NCBI GenBank assembly: GCA_947184155.2
Contig: CAMXCT020001724.1
Span: 613,217 to 677,216 of the forward strand
DNA: 64,000 nucleotides
Reading direction: 5' to 3'
DNA from: Cladocopium goreaui
Lineage: Eukaryota > Sar > Dinophyceae > Suessiales > Symbiodiniaceae
The notes under the pieces were generated by a model. That model saw nothing but the letters and a program-made list of their open reading frames with translations. It was not told the DNA's origin and searched no databases. Below are positions 48,813 to 61,396 of this stretch, in pieces. Position numbers and translations under genes: made by a program. The number at the start of each line of letters is the position of its first letter. Position 1 is the first letter of the stretch.

Positions 48813-48817
48813 GTGGT
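48813..48817. other. Target site duplication GTGGT, left copy
   Basis: The five bases directly before the left LTR are repeated directly after the right LTR at 61392-61396. Five bp is the usual duplication made by copia integrases. Confidence 0.9.
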
Positions 48818-48988
48818 TGTATTTTCAGGTTTCAGCGGGGTAAACTATGTTATACCCAAGTAGACTGATAAACCTAAATAACAATGGGCAAAACCGTTAA
48901 GCACCTGCGACTCACTCCTTTTTCCTGAGCCGCAACAGCTGTCAGATATATCTATTATACATGGGTTTTATGGTGGAGTGCAAATACA
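48818..48988 (-). repeat. 3' LTR (171 bp)
   Basis: Identical over all 171 bp to the LTR at 61221-61391. It begins TGTATTT and ends AAATACA, a 7-bp perfect terminal inverted repeat with TG...CA ends. In element sense it has an A/T-rich ATAATAGATATA stretch that may serve in initiation. Confidence 0.97.
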
Positions 48989-48996
48989 CCCCCCTC
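48989..48996 (-). promoter_or_regulatory. Polypurine tract GAGGGGGG
   Basis: The plus strand reads CCCCCCTC immediately inside the 3' LTR, so the element sense strand has GAGGGGGG abutting the LTR. This is the expected position of the plus-strand primer. Confidence 0.9.
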
Positions 48997-49146: not shown

Positions 49147-51078
49147 TTATCCCTCTTCCCATTCAACTCGGCCATGCCTGATAACTTTCTCATACCAGCG
49201 CCCGTGCCACTTCTGCCATTCTCCAGTGTAACGGCGGTCATCATGGGACTGACTTTGCTGAGGGCGGTTGATCCACTGACTTGCAGACGTTGATGATGAA
49301 GCTACCTCTACGGTGGATGTTCGGGCAACCGGTTTGACGGTGCCTTTCTTGGAGGGACCCTGGCCGTACGCACCAGTCTGCTCAGCTTTGCGCTTGGCCT
49401 CGTTCTGTTCGCGAGCCCTGTCAGACTGTTTCTTCTTCTCCGCAGCGTTCTGCTTGTACAGCTCCTCGTTTTGGCCCTTAATCCACCTCAAATGCCTTTC
49501 AGCATCATGAACAGCAATGTTGTCGACGCCAGTACAAGACAACAAAAGATTATGCTGAGGATTCCGGTTCAGATAGTCGATGTATTCTTCCTCAGAGTAG
49601 ATTTCAGTCCGGTACATGTAGAACCACGGTTGATCGATGTACCTGAAGGACTTCGGGACGTCAAGACGGCTGGCAAGATCCAAGTAAACCAGCCTCATTG
49701 CGTTGTGCTCGAGCTGAGACTGCTCGGAAACACCCATCTTGACCTGAGCCTTGGTACGACCTGGCTTCGGCAGATGTGCAGACTTGAGGAGGTCGTACCT
49801 TTCACAATCGTACTCGTTCTCCCCCTCGTTCAGCACGCTCTCTGCGAATGTGGCGTCCTGAGCAAACCTGTCTGCCACAGACACATAGCCCAAGCTCAAG
49901 GCACGGTCGAATCGACTCTTCGCCCTTGCTAACAAACTAGCTTCGGGGCTAGAGCTTCCTCTTGCCTGGTCGTCCAACAAACCCAAAGATTCGAGCTGAC
50001 TGTGTGTGATGCTCTGCAGGTACTCGCCACGAAAGTCATAGTACAAGCCCAGCTTGTGAAGGGCGGCCTTCCTTCGTTCTGCAATCTTGGTGCGGTCGGC
50101 CTTGTTCACCCCTTCGAGCATCAAGCCACACACATCACATTCGATCTGTCCCTTGAAAGTCTGAGCAAAACATCTTGAACATTGCGTGACTTCAATCTTG
50201 ATTGGCACCGGCTTCTTGTCCTCCTTCTTTTCCTCTTTCTTCGAAGGTTGGTCATCGCCTTTAGGGCGAGACTTCTGCTTTGGCACCAGTGACTTGGATG
50301 TTGATGCCGGCGTCTTTGAAGGTGACCCTGCAACTGGAGCTTTTGGATCTTTCTGTACTGCCTTTGGCGGTGCAACTTTCGACACAGGCTCCAAGAAGGC
50401 CGCAGCTGATGATGCCGCAGGCACAGCTGCGGGCACGCTTGTCAGGGCTGCCTTCTTCTTTGCAGGTTCTTCCTTTGCTGATGCATCAACTTCTGAGGTC
50501 ACAGCTTTTGGAACTTCTGGTGCATGAGGTGCAGAAGTCCCTTCCTTCGGTGATGGTTTTGGAGGTACTTTCGGCGGTGTCTTTGGGCTTTCAACCTTTG
50601 CTGCAGGAGGCTTCGGAGCTTCGCCTTTCGGAGGAGGGGGCAACAATCTGCTGCTTGCATATCCAGGCATACCGGCAAGTTGGGCCACATTTGGTGGCGG
50701 AGGCTTCACCTTTCCTGGGAAAAATGCTGTTGCAGTGGGCGCGCCAGTTGAGGCGGCCGGAGACTTGGAACCAGCCTGTTGTGATGCCTTGGCCTCAAAG
50801 GTCTCGACAAGCTGTTGGACTCCAACTTCTCCCCCACTGCTCGTTGCAGACTGTGCGACCTCCTGCTGGCGACGATACAAATTCACCTTTTTGGCAGTGT
50901 CATCGACAGAAATAATGTATTGAGGCGGCACGACATCACTTGTAAGAATGCCGTCAGAGGCTGTCCTGAAAACACACAATTCCAGCTTTGACCGCCTCAG
51001 CCATTGCGACCCTGATTTCAATGGGTCGTTCAGCACGCAGGCCGCTGACATACTCTTTCTCGTCGACACGCACTTCAC
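49147..51078 (-). CDS. Retrotransposon ORF3: end of Tpt1-like domain, Pro/Ala linker, zinc ribbon, unknown C-terminus
   Basis: 643 codons from the first ATG to TAA, but the first ~36 residues are probably read in the wrong frame, antisense in character to nothing known. From residue 39 (TASDGILTSDVVPPQYI) the protein is the missing end of the Tpt1/KptA-like domain begun in ORF2. Residues 100-295 are rich in Pro, Ala, Ser and Lys. C300, C303, C314 and C317 form a CxxC-x10-CxxC zinc ribbon. Residues 325-545 are a charged, mostly helical region unlike anything I recognise, followed by a basic Glu/Lys coiled segment (545-570) and a Trp/Arg-rich tail. The frame is shifted by +1 relative to ORF2. 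The product could be made by frameshifting or be lost from the mature polyprotein. Confidence 0.8.
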   Translation of the reverse strand: MKCVSTRKSMSAACVLNDPLKSGSQWLRRSKLELCVFRTASDGILTSDVVPPQYIISVDDTAKKVNLYRRQQEVAQSATSSGGEVGVQQLVETFEAKASQQAGSKSPAASTGAPTATAFFPGKVKPPPPNVAQLAGMPGYASSRLLPPPPKGEAPKPPAAKVESPKTPPKVPPKPSPKEGTSAPHAPEVPKAVTSEVDASAKEEPAKKKAALTSVPAAVPAASSAAAFLEPVSKVAPPKAVQKDPKAPVAGSPSKTPASTSKSLVPKQKSRPKGDDQPSKKEEKKEDKKPVPIKIEVTQCSRCFAQTFKGQIECDVCGLMLEGVNKADRTKIAERRKAALHKLGLYYDFRGEYLQSITHSQLESLGLLDDQARGSSSPEASLLARAKSRFDRALSLGYVSVADRFAQDATFAESVLNEGENEYDCERYDLLKSAHLPKPGRTKAQVKMGVSEQSQLEHNAMRLVYLDLASRLDVPKSFRYIDQPWFYMYRTEIYSEEEYIDYLNRNPQHNLLLSCTGVDNIAVHDAERHLRWIKGQNEELYKQNAAEKKKQSDRAREQNEAKRKAEQTGAYGQGPSKKGTVKPVARTSTVEVASSSTSASQWINRPQQSQSHDDRRYTGEWQKWHGRWYEKVIRHGRVEWEEG

Positions 51079-54000
51079 TAAAATAGGAGTGTGCCCTGCC
51101 TGATGAATTTCGTTCTCCTCCTCCAGCTACGAAACCATTCTCAATGATCCCCTTCCAATTGCCTTTCGTAGTCCTGTGATAGACTACGCCTGGGCACATC
51201 TGCGGTGTTGTAATCTTTTTGCCTTTGGCGTTCATCTTCTGGATGGCTGCCGCTCCGGACAGCGCATAGATTTCCACCGCATTGAATGTGTCCTCGGCCG
51301 AGGCAGCATCCATGGCACGCTTTGTGTGCCCCTGCACTGCACGGATCCTGATGGGCCAGTAGGCTAACCCTTTACGGGTTGCCTTCTGGTATCCTGCAAT
51401 GCACTGGAACTCAAAACGGCACTTGCTGTCCCAGTAGAGAAGGGAAATGAGCTCTTCAACCGTCATTCGGGGTAACTTGGCTGGCAGCATTTGATTGAAC
51501 ATTCGAAAGAAGTCATCAAGGTCAAGCCACATGTTTTCATCAAATCCAGAGGTGTCCTGACCTGGCTGTCCACGTGTCACTGCATTGACCTTGGTTTTGT
51601 GTCGGTCCATGCGATCTGGGTACCTCAGCTCCTCGGCTCCATCCATCTCCCAACATGTTTTCGTGATCAGTTCATATGGATGGGAGTCCACAACACAATG
51701 CTCAACAACTTCCGCATTAATGTTCTCGTCCAGCATGATCCGATACTTGTCAATGTGTCCAAGTGTATGTTTCGGGATGATCGTGCCTTTGAGCAAATTC
51801 TCCTGCGTGGGCTCACCGGCTGGGGTGGCCTGAGTTGAGTCTTCCTGTGCAGGTGGAGCTTTCGCCTTGGGGTCAGGAGGAGCTGCATGACTGGCTTTTG
51901 CCTTTCCCACCGATGGGCCTTCATACTCGTTGGCATCCAGAGCATCCCATGGGTCGCCTTCGTCATCATCATCATCATCAGCGACACCAGCATCAGTTGG
52001 GCGATCTCTCAACTCCTCTGCCGTCAAGCTTTCTGGGGTCGAGACGCTCGGTGCAGACTTGTTCGTCTTCTCCCGCAGAGCGGTGAGGACCTGCACAAAC
52101 CTGACTGGGAGATGCTCCATCTTTGGTGGGATGTCACGCATAGTAGCCTCCCCTGCAGGACGCCTGCGCTTGTACAAAGACAGGTTGTACTGGGGCACCA
52201 AAATGTCTGTCATGTGCAACATGTGGAGAGTTGCCATGACATATCCGATCATCTCACTTCGGTTGAGCTCGGTCTCGAATGCGTGAAAGTAGTCCCTGAG
52301 CTCAAGCCTCGGTGGAAGCTTATCATTCTGAATCCACCTGATCCGATCGTTGTCACTGGCAATCTCTTTGAAGAACCATTCCTTCAGACGCTCCACAAAG
52401 GTGGTAAAGATGAGACTCAATCCATAAGTGAGCGGGTCGGGCTCGCCGATTAGGGCGGCCTGATCCACTCCCAATTCCTTGAGCTGATTGTTCCACCACA
52501 CAATGTTGCCCTTGACCCTGTCCATGATGGCATTCCAGTCGCCCTGTGGTTCCCTCTGCCCCCAAATGGGAAGGGGTTCAACACCATGTTCCCCACAAAT
52601 TTCATTCCCAGACCAAAAGATCACCGAAATAACCCTGATGGCTGATCCATGAGAAGAATATTTTGCCATCAACTCCTTGATCATGGAAATATTTGCTTTG
52701 CAGAGCTGTTGCAAGTCCTTTCCCCAGAGCATGTCATGACCGATTTCGAGAACCATGTCCGACTTTCGCAATTCCAGATCCTCCTTCAAGGTGTACTTCT
52801 TCAAAGTCCTACCCTTTCCAGTGATCAGAGCCAAAGTTGAATCGGAAGTCACCACGTAGATGGTGGGCACGACGTCTACCGCCGGCCTTGAAGTCCCAGG
52901 GACATACTCAGTAGGCAAGTTCAGATCCCACAGCGAGTCGTGCTCGAGCTCGGACAGATGGCGGATCTCCTTTGCCCACGGCACATTCGTCAGGGCGTCA
53001 GTTGACATGGATTGCGCAGTGAAACATTGCATTAATCCTGCGGCAATCTCGAGGTCTTCTGTCCTGTTTCCTTGCGCCAGGATCGTTGACGAAGCGAGGA
53101 CCGTTGAAAAGATGTCCTCCCACCCTGCATGCCTATCCCCCTGAACATCAAGGCACTTCCGAAAAGCAAGCCACTCCGACATGTTGCTTTGTTGGGGCAC
53201 GGTCTTTAAACCGGCCGACTTGAGAGCCCGCGCGTTCATCTTTTCAGTGATCGACAGATTTGAATCATCAGAACGGCGGCTCATGGCGGGCAGAGCTAAC
53301 CTTTTCCTGTTCTTGGCGGTTTGTGCCTGGTTAGCTCTGGAACGAAAACAATCATGGATGAAGTCAGTCAACTTGAATGTGTAGTTCTCTGCAAGTTTCA
53401 ATGCAGTACCCCGGCTTTGACCATGAGTGTGGGAACCGTCACAAATGTATTCTGAAAGACTTGACAACTCTTCCATGTTTGTTGCAATCATCCAACCCTT
53501 TTTCATTGGATTCCCGTCCAAGTCAATAACCCCAAACTGGCAACCGTGGAATGGATACAACTTCAACTCTTGTCTCTTCAAAAACGATTGGACCATTGGC
53601 CATTTCCAATACTTGCAGTTCTTTGAGAGTTCAAATGCAATTGAAAGATGTGGCCCATCGATTTCACTGATAACTTTCTGAAGTGATTTGAAAAGTTTTG
53701 TAAATTCCTTTTGTTGCTGTTCGATCCGTTCGGCCCCAGTAACAGTCAAACTGTTGATGTAACCCCATGGGCTGCCGCCAACACATGGCAATGATGCGTA
53801 AAGCAAAATTTCTCCCTCTGGGTTACTTTCCCTGAATGACTGAACTTCTTGGGCTAGCCATTTGCGGCAGCCTTGGGTGGTGCCATCTTCAGTTTCTGTA
53901 ACTCTGATCAATCTGCACCCCTTGCTGGCTTCCCGCGGTGTACATAGCTTCGAATCATTTGAACAGCAAAACTCAATCAACATCCTTTGGAAAGAGTTTG

Positions 54001-55138
54001 AACCTTTACGTCCCCCCTGATCGTCGGCATTAGCTGGACACGCAGGCTTGGAGTCTACTTGGCGCACCTTCGGCTTGTCGGCGTCGATCCAAGTCTTTCC
54101 AATGGCCATCAACCTCAAAGCATGTTCCCATTTAGTTGGGGAAGTAAAAGGTTTTGTAAGAATGTCAGCTGTTTGCCAATTGGTGCCAACATTAATGAGG
54201 TCAAATTGTTCCTCCTCAAACTGCTGTTTCATCCATTTAAAACAGACGTTCTGAGTTTTGTTGGCGTACCGCATGGTGGAGGAATTACCGGTGCTCATCA
54301 CAGTTATAGAAGCCTGATTATCTTCCATGAACTTCACTTGATAGAACTCCGGAAAGTGGGCCTTCAATCCATTGATATTTGCCGCAGAAAGGCCCCCCTC
54401 AACATTACCATACCTGATTTCATCGATCTCTTTGTCGATACGAGTAAAAACAGGATCACTTGGTTCGGGGATGTTTGGCTTGGGGTTTGACCCAGCCTTC
54501 TGCGACAATTTCTTGAAAATGCCCAATTGCTCCAACAACGCTAACATTGGAATCCCTTCTGCTCTGAGTGCGTGATTGGCTGACACGACTTCGGCTTCAG
54601 TGGACGAGTTTGCTACAACTGTCTGCTTCTTGCTGAATGCGTTCAAAGGGAAGTAGGTGTTTGGCCCCACAAGAAACATAGCACAACCTGAAGTTGATTT
54701 TGAATCATGTTCCCCCGCATGATCAGCGTCTGCAAATAGCCACAGTTGACAATCCTCAAACGAGTCTCCCACAAAACCCTCCATGAAAACATCTGTAGTT
54801 GACTTGATGTAGGATACCAATCGGTGCAATGCAATATCACACTCAATGGACCATTTCGTCACCCTAGATGCCAAGCTCTGAGTAGCTCTTAAGAGATCTG
54901 GGCGTGCCATACGGGCCGCAAAGAGAATCTTCATCAGAACCTTCGATGCAATCGGCTGCAACCTCCCTGGCTTCTCCTTCTCATCGAGAGTTGGCCGGGC
55001 TATTCCCGCTTCTGTGAACGGCGTTGCAACCACTGGCAAATCATCTTTCTGAACCTTTGCCAGCTCACAGTATGCATCTACACATGATTCCATGAAAGAA
55101 GACATGTCGTATCTAACCAGGTTTACAGGTTTGTTCAT
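50954..55138 (-). CDS. Retrotransposon ORF2: end of RT, RNase H, methyltransferase-like, SGNH-like, Tpt1/KptA-like
   Basis: 1,394 codons. Residues 1-110 are the end of the copia reverse transcriptase (ARPDLLRATQSLAS). Residues 130-345 are RNase H with D137, E181, D273 and D325 in the motifs ADADHAG, STEAE, EDNQA and TADILTKP. Residues 387-556 resemble a C5-cytosine methyltransferase: IEFCCSNDSKL, LPCVGG with C452, FELSKNCKYW, and CQFGV...KKGWMIATN. Residues 756-990 may be SGNH-like (D766-S767, GHD 800-802, SGNE 843-846). Residues 1171-1390 match Tpt1/KptA: R1179-H1180, IRAVQGHT (R1266), YHRTT 1320-1324 and SGLR (R1368). It overlaps ORF1 by ATGA and stops inside the Tpt1-like domain. Confidence 0.9.
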   Translation of the reverse strand: MNKPVNLVRYDMSSFMESCVDAYCELAKVQKDDLPVVATPFTEAGIARPTLDEKEKPGRLQPIASKVLMKILFAARMARPDLLRATQSLASRVTKWSIECDIALHRLVSYIKSTTDVFMEGFVGDSFEDCQLWLFADADHAGEHDSKSTSGCAMFLVGPNTYFPLNAFSKKQTVVANSSTEAEVVSANHALRAEGIPMLALLEQLGIFKKLSQKAGSNPKPNIPEPSDPVFTRIDKEIDEIRYGNVEGGLSAANINGLKAHFPEFYQVKFMEDNQASITVMSTGNSSTMRYANKTQNVCFKWMKQQFEEEQFDLINVGTNWQTADILTKPFTSPTKWEHALRLMAIGKTWIDADKPKVRQVDSKPACPANADDQGGRKGSNSFQRMLIEFCCSNDSKLCTPREASKGCRLIRVTETEDGTTQGCRKWLAQEVQSFRESNPEGEILLYASLPCVGGSPWGYINSLTVTGAERIEQQQKEFTKLFKSLQKVISEIDGPHLSIAFELSKNCKYWKWPMVQSFLKRQELKLYPFHGCQFGVIDLDGNPMKKGWMIATNMEELSSLSEYICDGSHTHGQSRGTALKLAENYTFKLTDFIHDCFRSRANQAQTAKNRKRLALPAMSRRSDDSNLSITEKMNARALKSAGLKTVPQQSNMSEWLAFRKCLDVQGDRHAGWEDIFSTVLASSTILAQGNRTEDLEIAAGLMQCFTAQSMSTDALTNVPWAKEIRHLSELEHDSLWDLNLPTEYVPGTSRPAVDVVPTIYVVTSDSTLALITGKGRTLKKYTLKEDLELRKSDMVLEIGHDMLWGKDLQQLCKANISMIKELMAKYSSHGSAIRVISVIFWSGNEICGEHGVEPLPIWGQREPQGDWNAIMDRVKGNIVWWNNQLKELGVDQAALIGEPDPLTYGLSLIFTTFVERLKEWFFKEIASDNDRIRWIQNDKLPPRLELRDYFHAFETELNRSEMIGYVMATLHMLHMTDILVPQYNLSLYKRRRPAGEATMRDIPPKMEHLPVRFVQVLTALREKTNKSAPSVSTPESLTAEELRDRPTDAGVADDDDDDEGDPWDALDANEYEGPSVGKAKASHAAPPDPKAKAPPAQEDSTQATPAGEPTQENLLKGTIIPKHTLGHIDKYRIMLDENINAEVVEHCVVDSHPYELITKTCWEMDGAEELRYPDRMDRHKTKVNAVTRGQPGQDTSGFDENMWLDLDDFFRMFNQMLPAKLPRMTVEELISLLYWDSKCRFEFQCIAGYQKATRKGLAYWPIRIRAVQGHTKRAMDAASAEDTFNAVEIYALSGAAAIQKMNAKGKKITTPQMCPGVVYHRTTKGNWKGIIENGFVAGGGERNSSGRAHSYFSEVRVDEKEYVSGLRAERPIEIRVAMAEAVKAGIVCFQDSL

Positions 55139-58100
55139 GCAACCGGATTTGTCTGTGACGACATTCTCAATGCTTTTAAACCGTTGAGATTTCTTCTCAT
55201 TCTTGGCTTCCCTTTTGTCTCTGTGCGGACCGGGTCTGTTCTTTGATGGGAGGGCAACTGGTTAGTGTTGCCATACTCGTCACCATATCTGAAGATTGTT
55301 CTTCCTGTCCAGAAGTCCTTTGTCTGAATCTTTTGATCCACTGTCATGTCATCCTCAACAATAGCTGAACTTTCATCTGACATATGCATGTTGAGAACCG
55401 GGAGACCTCTAAATTCAACGTTTTTGTCGAACATTGTAACCCGTTCTGAATGTAAAGACTTGACAAACTCCCCCCCCTCATCGCCAGGCTCGAACAACTT
55501 CTTCCGTGGCTGGAGATGATACCTTGTCCAAGTTTTGTTGAAGGGGTCATGTTGCCAAAAATCATTTGTTCGATGTTGTGTACGTGACGCAGCAGCCGCT
55601 TGAGAATCAAAAACATGTGCAAAAGGATGAGCTTTTCGTGTAACATTGTTAAACTCCACGTGTTGACAACCGAAATATCGATCATAGGGTTCGGGGTCAC
55701 CAATGTTGACTGCTCGTTTGATACTTGCCCATGCTTTGTCCATGTTCTCAGTGGGACCTGCGAGTTTGAAATCATCCACGTAAACAACCAACATGCAATT
55801 GTATTCAGCATGATAGAAAATACTTTGCCATACATCAGGAAGAATTTGTTTCCAACCTTCTTTTCCGATTCTGCTGTTGAGATGGTTTTCCCAAATACCA
55901 CCGCTGTCTGGATGCCCGTATAAAGCTAATACCAATGGAACCATGGGTTGCCAGAATTGCTTTTCCCAGTGTTCTAGCCATCTGTTCCGTGGCAATGATA
56001 GCCATGTGGGCACCCCAGTGAAGAGGGCCTGGATGTAAGCTTGGATGGCATCTGCCTGTGCTTTTGAAAATCCGGGCTGAGAACCAAACGCGTCAAGAAG
56101 CTTTGCAGCTTCCATCGAAGCAGGACTGCTACCTAACTCGGCAAACAACGCGTGGTCAGAATCCTGGTCGCGGACATTGTTACCCTGGAAGACAGTACGA
56201 CCCTTGAATTTCCTACGAGGGTCATCGGCTGGAAGCTCTGATCCCTTTTCGTAGCAGGCTTCAAAAATCCGACCTAGATGTACAGTTTCTCCATTTTTGC
56301 GGGCTTCTTCAACAATGCTTCTACATTCCTTAACCCTGGATTCATCCCAAACTCCTTTGGTTCTGAGGTTCTCCCATTCCTTATCTAAGGCAGCTTTTGC
56401 TTTGGGATTTCTCCTAACCTCATCTTTGGGAACCAAACGTGCAACAGCAGAAAACAATTCAAGTGCCACTTTGAATTCCAACTCTGCGATCTTGTTCTTG
56501 ATCATCTCTCTCAATTCCGGGCGATGCAGTTCAGCTTTTGCTGGAACCGCTTTCGGCATTGCAGGGACGCAAAACTTCGGTCTATCCTTTGGAATGACCT
56601 CCCATTTTGACACAGTAGGCTCACCTGAGGGGCTAGGGTTTACCCGAAGCTTTCTTGCAGTTGCAACTGCACCTTTCTTCTTCTTCGGACCCTTTGATGC
56701 TGAGCTTGACGCAGCACCGCCGCTGCCAACAGCCATCTTTTCAGCCTCCTCCTCAACGAGCTTTTGCCTATCCTTTGGACTAAGCATTTTCCAAAAATCC
56801 GATGGGATCGACTCAGGGCGTTTTGACCCTTTGTACGTTTTCACAAGGCGTGTACCGTCCCAATGATATCCATCCGGGATTGGTGTTCCAGTTGGAGTGT
56901 ACTTGATATCAGGAAAAATTGTTTCCTCAGCCGCCCTTTCATCACTGGCAAGTGCGTCAAGCACTGCCTCCGTTGACTTGTCAATTGCTTCTTCACTTGC
57001 TTCTGCATGTTCCTCTGTTTGCAGTTCAGATTGAAACGGAATCGGACGAGGATCAGCAATGACATTGTCAGCAAGACGGTCCGGCTTGGGCTCTTTGGCC
57101 TCTTTCAATGCACGGAGTGGGAAGACAAAACCTCCCGCGATGAGCTCAACACGTCGTGCTCGCTGCACTGCGATGCTGCCTGTTTCTGCATGATAGTCCA
57201 ATGCTTCTAACTTGGCAACAAGATACTCACCCTTCCATGCAAAACCAGGTTGAATATGGTATCCCAAAAAGATTCCATCATTTGCGGTTGGTGATGTCTT
57301 TCCAGATGTGTTGTCAACCCTTTTTGGATTGTTCCAAAACAGTATCTTTGCACCGAAAGGAATCAACTGACCTGGAAAATCTTCTTCGAATCGGAGTTTC
57401 CATGGGGCATCATCACCGTTGAGCTGTGGCGTGGCATTCACTGCCATGGAGAAATGCTGCATAGCCATTGGCCAATACTGCAATGGAAGACCGGACTGCA
57501 CAAGGTTTGTGCGTGTGCCTTCAAGCATGTGCCTGATCTCCCTCTCCACAAACGACTTTGAACTGTCCACGTACTCTGTTGACGTTTGATGTCTGTACCC
57601 CAACTCTGAAATTGTAGCAATAAGTTCTCGTGAATTGTCAGTGTAAACTGCCCCAACTTCATCCTTGTGAGATAAGAAGTGGTTGAAAGCGTTGACACAT
57701 GACTCACTCGATTTGGTCTGACTTGGATAAACGTGCCTGAACTGAGTGTGGATGTCCTTCATCACCAATGCCACTGTTTCACCTTTGACGCCTTCTTCCA
57801 CATTGGATTTGATTACAGTGTGGTCAGCGACGATGTGATCCCCAAAACTTTTGGTTTCCAGTCTTTTCTGTCCCCCTTTCTTCTTTGCGGGTGGCGCCAT
57901 CATGCGCGCCTTCTGACAGATCTTGCAAAATGGATTCTTGGGGTAATGGCAAAATTGGTGAGATTTGCTGCATGCCTCTTGCTCAAGGTCGGATGCCTTT
58001 CTAGACCTGATGTAATCGGTTTCACTATCATGAGCTACTCCCTCATCCACACCTTCTTCATCGGCACCTTCTGCTTTTGCAGCAACCATTGCAAAAAGAC

Positions 58101-61100
58101 GTAACAAATCACAATCTTTCTTGAACTGTCCACTGTTCAAAACACGACAAGAGCTATCAATAACCGGCACACGGCCGTCTACGTTGAGCTCGATGACTCC
58201 CATATCCGGACGAATGAAGTAAGGCCTACCATCAGCCGGCCAAACAAAGCTGTATCCCTGTTCCATACATCTTACCCCGACCGAAAGAACAGCAGGAGTT
58301 TCCTCAAGAATGTATGGTGAGAACGGCTGGTGCAGGGCATCGACCTTTACGTCGGCCACCTCATCCGCACGTGTCGAACCGTTGGCTGTTGCAAGACTGA
58401 TTGGAGTGTCACTGACACGGCGATTTGTTGCCTTTGCAGTCTTCAACATGCCTTCACTGATCAGGTCCTGTTCACTACCGGTATCAACCAACCAAACACA
58501 TCCGTCTTTTGAAGCAGGAGTGGCAACAGTTGGCAAATGAGTGTTACTGAGTTTGTTCTTTGGACCGATCAGAGCTCTGCAGTGGTTACATGAGACTCCA
58601 CCTTCTGGGTCATTGCATCGGAAACGGCATTTGGGCTGCACATCGTTGCCGAAGAGCTTCACAAGTTCCTGCAACTGTCTGGCCGAAACCTGAGCACGGT
58701 GAGCAGTGAGTTTTGCCGGCTTTGGCACTGACTCTGAATCGGGGAACGTCTTCTCATAGATTCGGGGTTTGTGCACTACCTTTCTCTGTTCGCCTGTTGC
58801 TGGTACTTTGATGTATTCCACTTTTGATGAAAATACAACAGCTCTATGGCATTGTTCTTTCATGGCCTTTGTAGCCTTTGGCAACCCTTTTCCCTTTGCT
58901 ATGCATGCATACCTTTGAGTAATGCATGGCGCAGCTTTTGCACTGGCCTTCTTCTTTGGTGCAGGGCTATTAGTGCGCTTTGGATCCTTTGTGGGTGCAG
59001 CTGCAACTTCATGTTTGTAGAAACATTTGTCACCACGACGACATTTGCCCTGTTGGAAGTAAGTGCATGGGATTTTGGCCATCTCTTCCCTTGACTTTCT
59101 GTTAGGGGAACCACTTCTGCTACCGCCTTTGCCCTTACCCTTCTTTTTGGGAGTGCCAGATCTTGAGGAATCCTTGACATGCTTGTAGGGACAGTCTTTA
59201 CCCTTTTCGCACTTGCCATCCCTGAACTTGTAACATATCTTATCCCCTTTTCCACTCTGGCTTCGACCACGGGATCGACCTCGATCACCTTTTCCTTTGC
59301 CGCGATCTTTGCCCCCCTGAGCGGGTGCAGCGGGCTGAGGCTTTTCGGTCTGTTTGTTCTTTTCAACGATTCTGTTTCTGTTTGAACGGAGTCTTTCTCT
59401 ATCCAAAAGATCACGAATGTTTCTCAATAAGAATGCATAAGACTTCTGTTCCGACTTTTCAGGAGCTCTGTCGAATGCTTCAATGTCATACTTCATCAAT
59501 TGGCATTTTCGGATTTGTCTAAGTAGGATGTCTCTGAGAACCAAATCATCTGGTGGGGTTTCCATGCCGGCAATTGTGGCGTCCCATCGGTTCAGAAACC
59601 TTCTAAGGTCCTCCACGGATTCTCCAGTGCGAACGACTCCAAGTAGGTCCTCCACGCGATAGAGACTGCCAGCTTCCTCAGACGTCCTGAAGTAGTCTTC
59701 AAACATCAAAAGGACTCTCCTACCTCTAACTTGGATCCCTTTCTTTGACTTCTCATCTTTGAAGTTGTGGATCTTTGTTGCTAAATCACCTTTGGCCGAG
59801 CGAGTTAACGCTGCCGACAACTTGGTATCAAGTGTGATGAATTTCCCAGGTTCCTGCAGCTTTTCCTCCAACTTTTCCCTAGGAGTTTTGTTGTCAAAGA
59901 CTTCATTGAGCCAAAGCCAAGCCTTATCGGGTTTGTCGGAGCACGACTTGACTTCATCTCTGACATGATTACGCCAGTGACGATACGCTTCCGGGGCAGG
60001 CATGTCGTTCAGTTTGATAGTCTCTGCCTCTTTTGTTCGGGGCTTTTCACCATCTGAATCCTTTGAAGTCAGTCTAGTGATGAGATCTAGCAATTGTTGA
60101 CCTGAAAGACCTAAGCCTGCATCAGCAGCTTTCTTGCCGGTGTCGCTTGCTATTGCTGTAGGACTGGGCACACTTTGTTCTTGGTTTGCATCATCATCGT
60201 TTTGTCTTTGAACTGGCAATGGTGGCAGTTTTGGAGGTGCTGCTGATCCGGCAGGGGTTGTTGAGAATAAGTTGCTCAATCTTTCTTTAGCGTCCACGGC
60301 TAAGCTGCTCATACCAGTGTTTGGCATGGGTTCTGCTCCAGCCTTGGTACCGACCGCTGATTTTTGGGTCAAGTACAAATCGACATTGTTCCCGCCTTGT
60401 GCATCATCAACTTCGACGGCTCTGTCGACCTTGATTTCAGGGGCGCTGTACTTGTTGAGCTTCTCCATCAAATCCTCCACTTGTCCCTGCAGTTGATAGT
60501 TGAGTTCAGCAGCTTGGTTTTCCTGCCTACTGCATTCCTCTCTAATCTCCTGGATTACAGCTTGTTCCTCCTTCTTGAAACCTTCCATGCCATTCTTTGC
60601 ATACTCCACTGTTTCGTCCACGATTCGTTTACAGTCTGCCTCGAGGCTACCTCTGAGTTCAGAAAACCTTTGTTCGTACTGGGCTGTAACATGGGCTACC
60701 TTTTGGTTTGCTCTTTGCTCAGCTTCCAGTGCAACTGCATTTGCAGCGTTTTTCAGCTTTGCGTTTGCATCGCTAAGTTCCTGTCTCAGTTTTGCGACCT
60801 CATGCTCAGTTGCCGTTTGGGACATTGAATACTCTGACACTAGGTGTTCATGTCTACGATCAGCTTCTGCACGTTGATGGGCAATTTCACTAAGGCAAAT
60901 TCCCTCAAACTCTTGGTACAGTTGCTGGACCTTTTGTTCCATGAGATGTGTGTGTCTCTCTTCTGCCTCTCGTCTGAAAGCGTCAATGTTACCTTCATTA
61001 ATGTAGGTAAGATTGTTCTGCACGAACTGAAAATATGCCTGGACGGGCTGTGTGAAGAAACCTTCATCTACCGACATGGGCGTGGGAGTTGCCCCAGCCG

Positions 61101-61194
61101 TCGCAGGCTGAGATCCAGTTGATGCAGTCGCCATTGTTCCTGATGCAGGTACGGGAGCACCACCACCACCTGTAGCATCATGTGATTTGTCCAT
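55135..61194 (-). CDS. Retrotransposon ORF1: Gag, protease, integrase, reverse transcriptase
   Basis: 2,019 codons, starting in the strong context GCCATGG 26 bases after the 5' LTR. Residues 70-250 form a long coiled coil. 395-610 is a copia-type Gag region. Two CCCH fingers (C654-x7-C662-x5-C668-x3-H672 and C710-x7-C718-x5-C724-x3-H728) replace the usual CCHC knuckle. C856, C860, C869 and C872 form a further cluster. The aspartic protease has VDTGS (D904). Integrase spans 1070-1350, with H1079, H1083, C1090, C1093 and the triad D1124, D1186, E1217. Reverse transcriptase spans 1590-1850, with D1715 in DAIQAYIQA and YVDD at 1805-1808. The last ~30 residues are probably out of frame: the true continuation lies in the ORF2 frame, which is open back to 55,261. 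Confidence 0.95.
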   Translation of the reverse strand: MDKSHDATGGGGAPVPASGTMATASTGSQPATAGATPTPMSVDEGFFTQPVQAYFQFVQNNLTYINEGNIDAFRREAEERHTHLMEQKVQQLYQEFEGICLSEIAHQRAEADRRHEHLVSEYSMSQTATEHEVAKLRQELSDANAKLKNAANAVALEAEQRANQKVAHVTAQYEQRFSELRGSLEADCKRIVDETVEYAKNGMEGFKKEEQAVIQEIREECSRQENQAAELNYQLQGQVEDLMEKLNKYSAPEIKVDRAVEVDDAQGGNNVDLYLTQKSAVGTKAGAEPMPNTGMSSLAVDAKERLSNLFSTTPAGSAAPPKLPPLPVQRQNDDDANQEQSVPSPTAIASDTGKKAADAGLGLSGQQLLDLITRLTSKDSDGEKPRTKEAETIKLNDMPAPEAYRHWRNHVRDEVKSCSDKPDKAWLWLNEVFDNKTPREKLEEKLQEPGKFITLDTKLSAALTRSAKGDLATKIHNFKDEKSKKGIQVRGRRVLLMFEDYFRTSEEAGSLYRVEDLLGVVRTGESVEDLRRFLNRWDATIAGMETPPDDLVLRDILLRQIRKCQLMKYDIEAFDRAPEKSEQKSYAFLLRNIRDLLDRERLRSNRNRIVEKNKQTEKPQPAAPAQGGKDRGKGKGDRGRSRGRSQSGKGDKICYKFRDGKCEKGKDCPYKHVKDSSRSGTPKKKGKGKGGSRSGSPNRKSREEMAKIPCTYFQQGKCRRGDKCFYKHEVAAAPTKDPKRTNSPAPKKKASAKAAPCITQRYACIAKGKGLPKATKAMKEQCHRAVVFSSKVEYIKVPATGEQRKVVHKPRIYEKTFPDSESVPKPAKLTAHRAQVSARQLQELVKLFGNDVQPKCRFRCNDPEGGVSCNHCRALIGPKNKLSNTHLPTVATPASKDGCVWLVDTGSEQDLISEGMLKTAKATNRRVSDTPISLATANGSTRADEVADVKVDALHQPFSPYILEETPAVLSVGVRCMEQGYSFVWPADGRPYFIRPDMGVIELNVDGRVPVIDSSCRVLNSGQFKKDCDLLRLFAMVAAKAEGADEEGVDEGVAHDSETDYIRSRKASDLEQEACSKSHQFCHYPKNPFCKICQKARMMAPPAKKKGGQKRLETKSFGDHIVADHTVIKSNVEEGVKGETVALVMKDIHTQFRHVYPSQTKSSESCVNAFNHFLSHKDEVGAVYTDNSRELIATISELGYRHQTSTEYVDSSKSFVEREIRHMLEGTRTNLVQSGLPLQYWPMAMQHFSMAVNATPQLNGDDAPWKLRFEEDFPGQLIPFGAKILFWNNPKRVDNTSGKTSPTANDGIFLGYHIQPGFAWKGEYLVAKLEALDYHAETGSIAVQRARRVELIAGGFVFPLRALKEAKEPKPDRLADNVIADPRPIPFQSELQTEEHAEASEEAIDKSTEAVLDALASDERAAEETIFPDIKYTPTGTPIPDGYHWDGTRLVKTYKGSKRPESIPSDFWKMLSPKDRQKLVEEEAEKMAVGSGGAASSSASKGPKKKKGAVATARKLRVNPSPSGEPTVSKWEVIPKDRPKFCVPAMPKAVPAKAELHRPELREMIKNKIAELEFKVALELFSAVARLVPKDEVRRNPKAKAALDKEWENLRTKGVWDESRVKECRSIVEEARKNGETVHLGRIFEACYEKGSELPADDPRRKFKGRTVFQGNNVRDQDSDHALFAELGSSPASMEAAKLLDAFGSQPGFSKAQADAIQAYIQALFTGVPTWLSLPRNRWLEHWEKQFWQPMVPLVLALYGHPDSGGIWENHLNSRIGKEGWKQILPDVWQSIFYHAEYNCMLVVYVDDFKLAGPTENMDKAWASIKRAVNIGDPEPYDRYFGCQHVEFNNVTRKAHPFAHVFDSQAAAASRTQHRTNDFWQHDPFNKTWTRYHLQPRKKLFEPGDEGGEFVKSLHSERVTMFDKNVEFRGLPVLNMHMSDESSAIVEDDMTVDQKIQTKDFWTGRTIFRYGDEYGNTNQLPSHQRTDPVRTETKGKPRMRRNLNGLKALRMSSQTNPVA

Positions 61195-61204
61195 GGCTTT
61201 AGAG

Positions 61205-61220
61205 ACTACGGCTGATAACC
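61205..61220 (-). other. Primer-binding-site candidate
   Basis: Directly after the 5' LTR the element sense strand reads GGTTATCAGCCGTAGT. Its complement ends CGGCTGATAACC, which looks like a tRNA anticodon stem and 7-nt loop (CTGATAA) rather than an acceptor end with CCA. The copia element of Drosophila is primed in this way by a half-tRNA. A looser alternative is the TGGTATCAGAG sequence complementary to initiator tRNA 3' ends, sharing ATCAG. Confidence 0.5.
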
Positions 61221-61391
61221 TGTATTTTCAGGTTTCAGCGGGGTAAACTATGTTATACCCAAGTAGACTGATAAACCTAAATAACAATGGGCAAAACCGT
61301 TAAGCACCTGCGACTCACTCCTTTTTCCTGAGCCGCAACAGCTGTCAGATATATCTATTATACATGGGTTTTATGGTGGAGTGCAAATACA
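61221..61391 (-). repeat. 5' LTR (171 bp)
   Basis: Identical to the LTR at 48818-48988. In element sense transcription would start here and run toward lower coordinates. Short for a copia LTR. Confidence 0.97.
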
Positions 61392-61396
61392 GTGGT

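Follow-up and report, generated by a model that had tools for sequence, protein, structure and literature searches.

The Tpt1/KptA domain of a Copia-like retrotransposon

Genome-wide comparison demonstrates, at the level of sequence, that a many-copy, Copia-like long terminal repeat (LTR) retrotransposon in the dinoflagellate Cladocopium goreaui regularly includes in its polyprotein a divergent domain of the Tpt1/KptA family of RNA 2'-phosphotransferases, which is under selection. The copy described here spans positions 61391 to 48818 (12.6 kb) of a 64,000-nucleotide stretch of contig CAMXCT020001724.1 (positions 613,217 to 677,216), referred to as the window; the element and all of its features lie on the minus strand. 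Four lines of evidence, namely the profile match, the fold, the survey of copies and conservation, support the presence of such a domain in an LTR retrotransposon. The gene products are known here from sequence and predicted structure.

Most of the domain is encoded in the second open reading frame (ORF2) of the element, a piece of which matches Pfam PTS_2-RNA (PF01885) with E=2.1e-11, its score of 44.6 bits exceeding the cut-off of 26. The match covers profile positions 46-166 of 177 and corresponds to ORF2 residues 1264-1431 (50969..51472); the whole 1435-residue ORF2 frame matches the same profile with E=3.2e-9. The N-lobe, which starts near 51620, has no Pfam match and was delimited from alignments and a structure model. 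Together, the predicted fold and the alignments recover both the winged-helix RNA lobe and the ADP-ribosyltransferase-type NAD lobe. A phmmer search of the short Tpt1 piece against PDB sequences gave no match up to E=1, so recognition of this piece requires a profile or a fold, and the viral contigs of IMG/VR hold no relatives of the window domain.

An earlier sequence-only reading had proposed a Tpt1/KptA-like domain here and had called for a profile search, a structure prediction and a survey of other copies. The motifs it named are all present, its residue numbers being those of the ORF2 frame minus 41 (counted from Met 42), the profile search exceeded the cut-off, and the structure model is consistent with the two-lobe fold of Tpt1/KptA. 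Its statement that the final strand is read in the next frame also holds, since DGILTSDVVPPQYI (50914..50955) lies in ORF3, and the survey found the domain retained in other copies.

Copies, frames and selection

The survey covered 1,165,616,438 bases in 6202 contigs and scored 150 of 1496 candidate places, all of which exceeded the PF01885 cut-off, so that the genome holds at least 150 such places. By eye, a stop falls inside the match in 5 of the 150, and 14 lie in stop-free frames of about 4020-4040 amino acids. Three are cellular-type genes (L001-L003). Of these, L001 resembles the host's own Tpt1, while L002 and L003 are bacterial-type KptA, the latter placed among planctomycetes in the tree; L003 is on contig C1 (7.4 Mb) and L002 on contig C5523 (14.7 kb), and both probably come from contaminating or companion bacteria that entered the assembly.

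Relatives were also recovered from the protein database, with identities of 95% (P0001), 80% (P0002), 60% (P0003; 62% in a second search), 85% (P0004), 98% (P0005) and 83% (P0006), some of them possibly derived from the same genome. The whole domain is read in a single frame in P0001, P0003, P0005 and P0006, as it is in the genomic copies L026-L028; P0002 leaves the frame within the domain, and P0004 stops ahead of its second half. The window copy has two frame breaks, one between ORF1 and ORF2 and one inside the Tpt1 domain (ORF2/ORF3). Because the domain is continuous in the copies and relatives just listed, the latter frameshift represents damage to the window copy and not a trait of the family.

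Two classes of copies, D (the window type) and E, have a common Copia-like polyprotein. In the class E copy L023, CCCH fingers, a reverse transcriptase match (RVT_2, 1.7e-4, below cut-off) and Tpt1 (2.6e-11) lie in one frame of 3333 amino acids. A tandem repeat with units of about 45-50 bases (TTACGTAAATTTTGACGTTGTAAACGCC...) precedes the class E LTR region by some 300 bases at L150 (661-1080).

The ratio of nonsynonymous to synonymous substitution rates (dN/dS) was estimated by the Nei-Gojobori method, with pairs that have common ancestry and are hence non-independent. Class D gave a median of 0.031 and a maximum of 0.139 at a median dS of 0.243 (253 pairs, 233 with dS > 0.05), and class E a median of 0.065 and a maximum of 0.119 (78 pairs, 55 used). 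The frame-broken window copy, compared with three others, yielded 0.02-0.03 in the Tpt1 domain and 0.08-0.10 upstream. For a third class, B, the pair L009/L010 gave 0.08 (upstream 0.09) and L012/L013 gave 0.15 (upstream 0.11); the remaining B pairs, and D against E, were saturated. Since synonymous codons vary at conserved positions, with CGT, CGC and CGA all found for the class D Arg68 described below, the constancy of the kept residues does not merely reflect recent copying. Strong selection across so many copies suggests that the elements need the domain, a predicted enzyme, for their own copying.

These data also bear on the idea that the domain is there by accident and has no role, having arisen by capture of a host gene or as a chimera of the assembly. 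Retroelements do capture genes, and the window copy is frame-broken within the domain. Set against this are the 150 scored places, the undamaged relatives P0001, P0003, P0005 and P0006 at 60-98% identity and the strong purifying selection, and we regard an accident as very improbable. Chance or artefact as the source of the match is ruled out by the profile match, the copy number, the undamaged relatives and the dN/dS values.

Catalytic residues

Catalysis by CthTpt1 depends on Arg18, His19, Arg68 and Arg121 (PMC6333775; this and the other papers cited are represented here by parts of their texts), and its columns provide our numbering, with window residues assigned from two alignments. The Arg18-aligned codon lies in T-R-G (51572..51574) and is followed by Gly in place of His19. 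Arg68 aligns with the Arg of IRAVQGHT (51341..51343), Arg121, the fourth tetrad residue, with that of SGRAHSYFS (51095..51097), and the NAD-phosphate Arg139 with that of SGLR (51035..51037). The sequence-only reading had assigned an Arg-His-Arg-Arg tetrad to these motifs; its Arg68 in IRAVQGHT stands, whereas the fourth Arg is in SGRAHSYFS and not in SGLR, and the His19 column holds Gly. The R-H pair of MDRHKTK, previously taken as the first two residues (1179-1180 in its numbering), is ruled out as the catalytic pair by both alignments, which place the Arg18-His19 columns at T-R-G ten residues further on; P0003 reads K-H at the former site and keeps T-R-G.

Conservation was followed in a 16-row alignment of classes B, D and E and two further lineages, C1 and C2. 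All 16 rows retain Arg139 and the HxT His, and the C1 and C2 rows have the full R-H-R-R tetrad. The canonical tetrad is absent from classes D and E, which read R-G-R-R in 7/7 rows, and from class B, which reads R-H-A-R in 7/7, with Ala at the Arg68 column. A further 40 places (23 D and 13 E with an intact N-lobe, 2 damaged upstream, 1 C1 and 1 C2) came from the highest-scoring matches, a choice that under-represents damaged copies. All 40 retain Arg68, His101, Thr103 and Arg121; Arg18 is kept at 38, both exceptions being the damaged places, and Arg139 also at 38, replaced once by Pro and once by Ser (in the C1 row, whose alignment is uncertain here). Peptide patterns that include IRAxQGH served to select the reference rows (80 bacterial, 36 viral), and invariance at those columns is therefore partly built in.

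The altered tetrads raise the possibility that the kept domain is no longer a 2'-phosphotransferase and serves instead as an RNA- or NAD-binding module, or as an ADP-ribosyltransferase confined to step 1, for packaging or for capping the 5'-phosphates of RNA or cDNA. Such a loss would fit the missing tetrad His of D/E and the Ala of class B. It would also fit the behavior of RslTpt1, in which the rate drops about 210-fold at step 2 and about 3-fold at step 1 when Arg64 is changed to Ala (PMC6333775), and the inclusion of 5'-phosphate ADP-ribosylation in the Tpt1 repertoire (PMC6582358). On the other hand, changing any tetrad residue of human TRPT1 to Ala abolishes 5'-phosphate ADP-ribosylation (PMC6582358), the tetrad is complete in C1 and C2, and D/E keep the other catalytic-site residues. 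We consider this loss of activity somewhat doubtful.

Other lineages and phylogeny

Tpt1 domains also occur in other retroelements. Lineage B (L009-L016, L030) scores about 92-101 bits and has a C-terminal integrase-like match (phrog_216, 9.3e-5; PF00589, 0.0044, below cut-off). Its relatives P0008 (44%) and P0009 (49%) each combine, within a single frame, Tpt1 with parts that resemble reverse transcriptase (RT), RNase H and tyrosine recombinase; human TRPT1 is matched at E=7.3e-19 by a profile built from P0007-P0009. In this lineage the Tpt1 domain is placed between the RNase H-like and tyrosine-recombinase-like parts. We label the element DIRS-like, with that qualification because the parts of P0008 and P0009 other than Tpt1 were recognized by eye.

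Lineage C1, at two places on contig C5927, combines RVT_2 (9.8e-12, over cut-off) with Tpt1 (1.3e-15). It appears to be another Copia-like element (L018 961-1575, L190), in which the tetrad is complete and HVT replaces HGT. Lineage C2 comprises L019, L020 and L031 (contigs C691, C5903 and C4182), and the frame that follows encodes a PLD-like domain (PF13091, 3e-9); in L019, the one place where the RT neighborhood was viewed, Tpt1 (2.4e-13) lies beside RVT_1 (2.3e-4, below cut-off).

In the tree, lineage B forms one clade (100/99) and D/E another (100/100), with C1 apart from D/E despite a common insertion before IRA; the deep placement of the lineages is affected by long branches. Constraining B and D/E together, with C1 and C2 left out, gave a tree 7.15 log-likelihood units above the free quick tree (p-AU, approximately unbiased test, 0.603). 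Because the constrained tree scored higher, a single origin of the domain followed by exchange between elements is possible.

Structure of the window element

The hallmarks of Copia (Pseudoviridae) elements, namely LTRs, a short target-site duplication, a primer-binding site (PBS) and a polypurine tract (PPT), are all present. The 5' LTR (61221..61391; 171 bp, TG...CA) equals the 3' LTR (48818..48988; 171 bp) at 171/171 positions, and the duplication ACCAC flanks the element at 61392..61396 on the 5' side and 48813..48817 on the 3' side. A probable PBS, GGTTATCAGCCGTAGTCTC (61202..61220), abuts the 5' LTR, and the PPT GAGGGGGG (48989..48996) precedes the 3' LTR.

All three frames are given from stop to stop. 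ORF1 (55135..61227; first ATG past the PBS at about 61194) encodes a coiled gag-like part, CCCH fingers, a protease-like part, integrase and RT. Its CCCH match exceeds the Pfam cut-off, protease and RVT_2 (E=6e-4) fall below theirs, and the integrase ahead of RT was recognized by eye alone. ORF2 (50954..55261) contains the RT end, RNase H (by eye), two regions without assignment and most of the Tpt1/KptA domain. Both unassigned regions, which are conserved and lie between RNase H and Tpt1 (51990-54000), lack a Pfam match; one has LPCVGGSPWG and the other a DS...GH pattern, and a 611-residue structure model of them has a mean pLDDT (predicted local distance difference test) of 34.7. ORF3 (49147..51126) encodes the Tpt1 end, a Pro/Lys-rich stretch, a CxxC...CxxC motif and the C-terminal part of the polyprotein, and has no Pfam match above cut-off.

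Proposed role in primer maturation

Tpt1 takes the 2'-phosphate off tRNA splice junctions (PMC6333775), and Tpt1 proteins are able to ADP-ribosylate 5'-phosphate ends (PMC6582358). We tentatively propose that the retroelement domain acts in the particle on RNA used in reverse transcription, the likeliest substrate being a half-tRNA primer. The domain would bind NAD+ and 2'-phosphorylated RNA and, inside the particle, would remove phosphates or make a phospho-ADP-ribose intermediate. A half-tRNA primer would have its 3' end in the anticodon stem and hence would be made by cleavage and may bear a phosphate. If the primer tRNA has an intron, two or three nucleotides would separate the priming end from the splice junction and its 2'-phosphate, the known Tpt1 substrate. 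Fungal Copia elements are primed by the anticodon loops of tRNAs with intron-bearing genes (PMC10886601), which would put the splice junction within the primer. Primer clean-up would be the most economical use of Tpt1 in such an element.

The sequence-only reading had suggested mending of RNA ends or tRNA primers, or reversal of a defence, as possible roles; to the primer idea among these the PBS lends some circumstantial support. The PBS sequence is shared by the window copy, 7/7 further copies of class D and the single copy of class E that was inspected, with at least 19 nucleotides identical between the two classes although their LTRs differ. Its complement, GAGACUACGGCUGAUAACC, has the shape of an anticodon arm with a cut behind nucleotide 40. 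Priming from this position is described for Hemiviruses, and copia and Ty5 are known to use half-tRNAs as primers (PMC1181622). The PBS (window and L149-L156) has C opposite wobble position 34. This C could be a record of inosine in tRNA-Ile(AAU), copied by reverse transcriptase.

Several observations weigh against the proposal. Assuming a perfectly paired stem, the genome contained no match to a host tRNA with the deduced arm contiguous, and none to the arm with A or G at position 34 and an intron of 0-30 nucleotides. The deduced anticodon, GAU, is unusual in nuclear tRNA. The Gly in place of the tetrad His in D/E and the effect of Ala changes in human TRPT1 also count here, and the primer idea fails to cover the DIRS-like lineage B.

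Both the Copia-like and the DIRS-like lineages would be accounted for by counter-defence, in which the domain mends RNA of the host or the element after cleavage by a host nuclease, or reverses another RNA-directed defence, as proposed for the KptA of jumbo phages and of picorna-like virus and nidovirus polyproteins (PMC9503650). Pfam, however, recognized no RNA ligase, 2H or macrodomain in the scanned pieces of the element, several regions of which are without assignment, and we judge counter-defence unlikely. As for primer maturation, its fullest form, that Tpt1 was recruited into at least two unrelated retroelement lineages and in the Copia-like one frees the element's half-tRNA primer of a 2'-phosphate at the splice junction or the cleavage end, is likewise improbable as a whole.

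Comparison with known systems and significance

The window domain resembles cellular Tpt1/KptA/TRPT1 (PF01885) in its two-lobe fold, its IRAxQGH and HxT motifs and the Arg18, Arg68, Arg121 and Arg139 columns; it differs in lying within a retroelement polyprotein, in the Gly at the His19 column, in HRT for HGT and in insertions before IRA and HxT. The KptA proteins of a picorna-like virus, a nidovirus and jumbo phages are likewise carried by selfish replicons, within a polyprotein in the two viruses (PMC9503650), but these are RNA-virus and phage replicons, whereas the elements described here are reverse-transcribing. The text of that paper contains none of the words retrotransposon, retroelement, dinoflagellate and reverse transcriptase.

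SymbioLINE-Dnmt and SymbioDIRS-Dnmt3 of Symbiodinium offer another parallel, in that more than one kind of retroelement has captured an enzyme that modifies nucleic acid; the enzyme there is a cytosine methyltransferase, carried by LINE and DIRS elements, and the Copia elements there lack a DNMT (PMC5890265, a text in which phosphotransferase does not occur). With hemivirus-type Copia elements (copia, Ty5, Osser, 1731; PMC1181622), the window element has in common LTRs, a PPT and a PBS seemingly complementary to an anticodon arm. It differs in its 12.6 kb length, in the frames of about 4020-4040 amino acids of other copies, in the Tpt1 domain and in a primer tRNA not found by two strict patterns. 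Among the papers that searches of the open-license PMC literature brought up, we recognized no report of a retroelement with a Tpt1/KptA RNA 2'-phosphotransferase.

These findings point to a tRNA-splicing and RNA-repair enzyme that more than one type of mobile element has adopted and retained, and they connect, in a testable way, the chemistry at the ends of tRNA halves with how reverse transcription is primed. The natural Tpt1 variants, with their differing tetrad changes, could help to separate step 1 from step 2. If the primer reading is true, this would be a retrotransposon that supplies its own tRNA-splicing enzyme so that its primer becomes usable.

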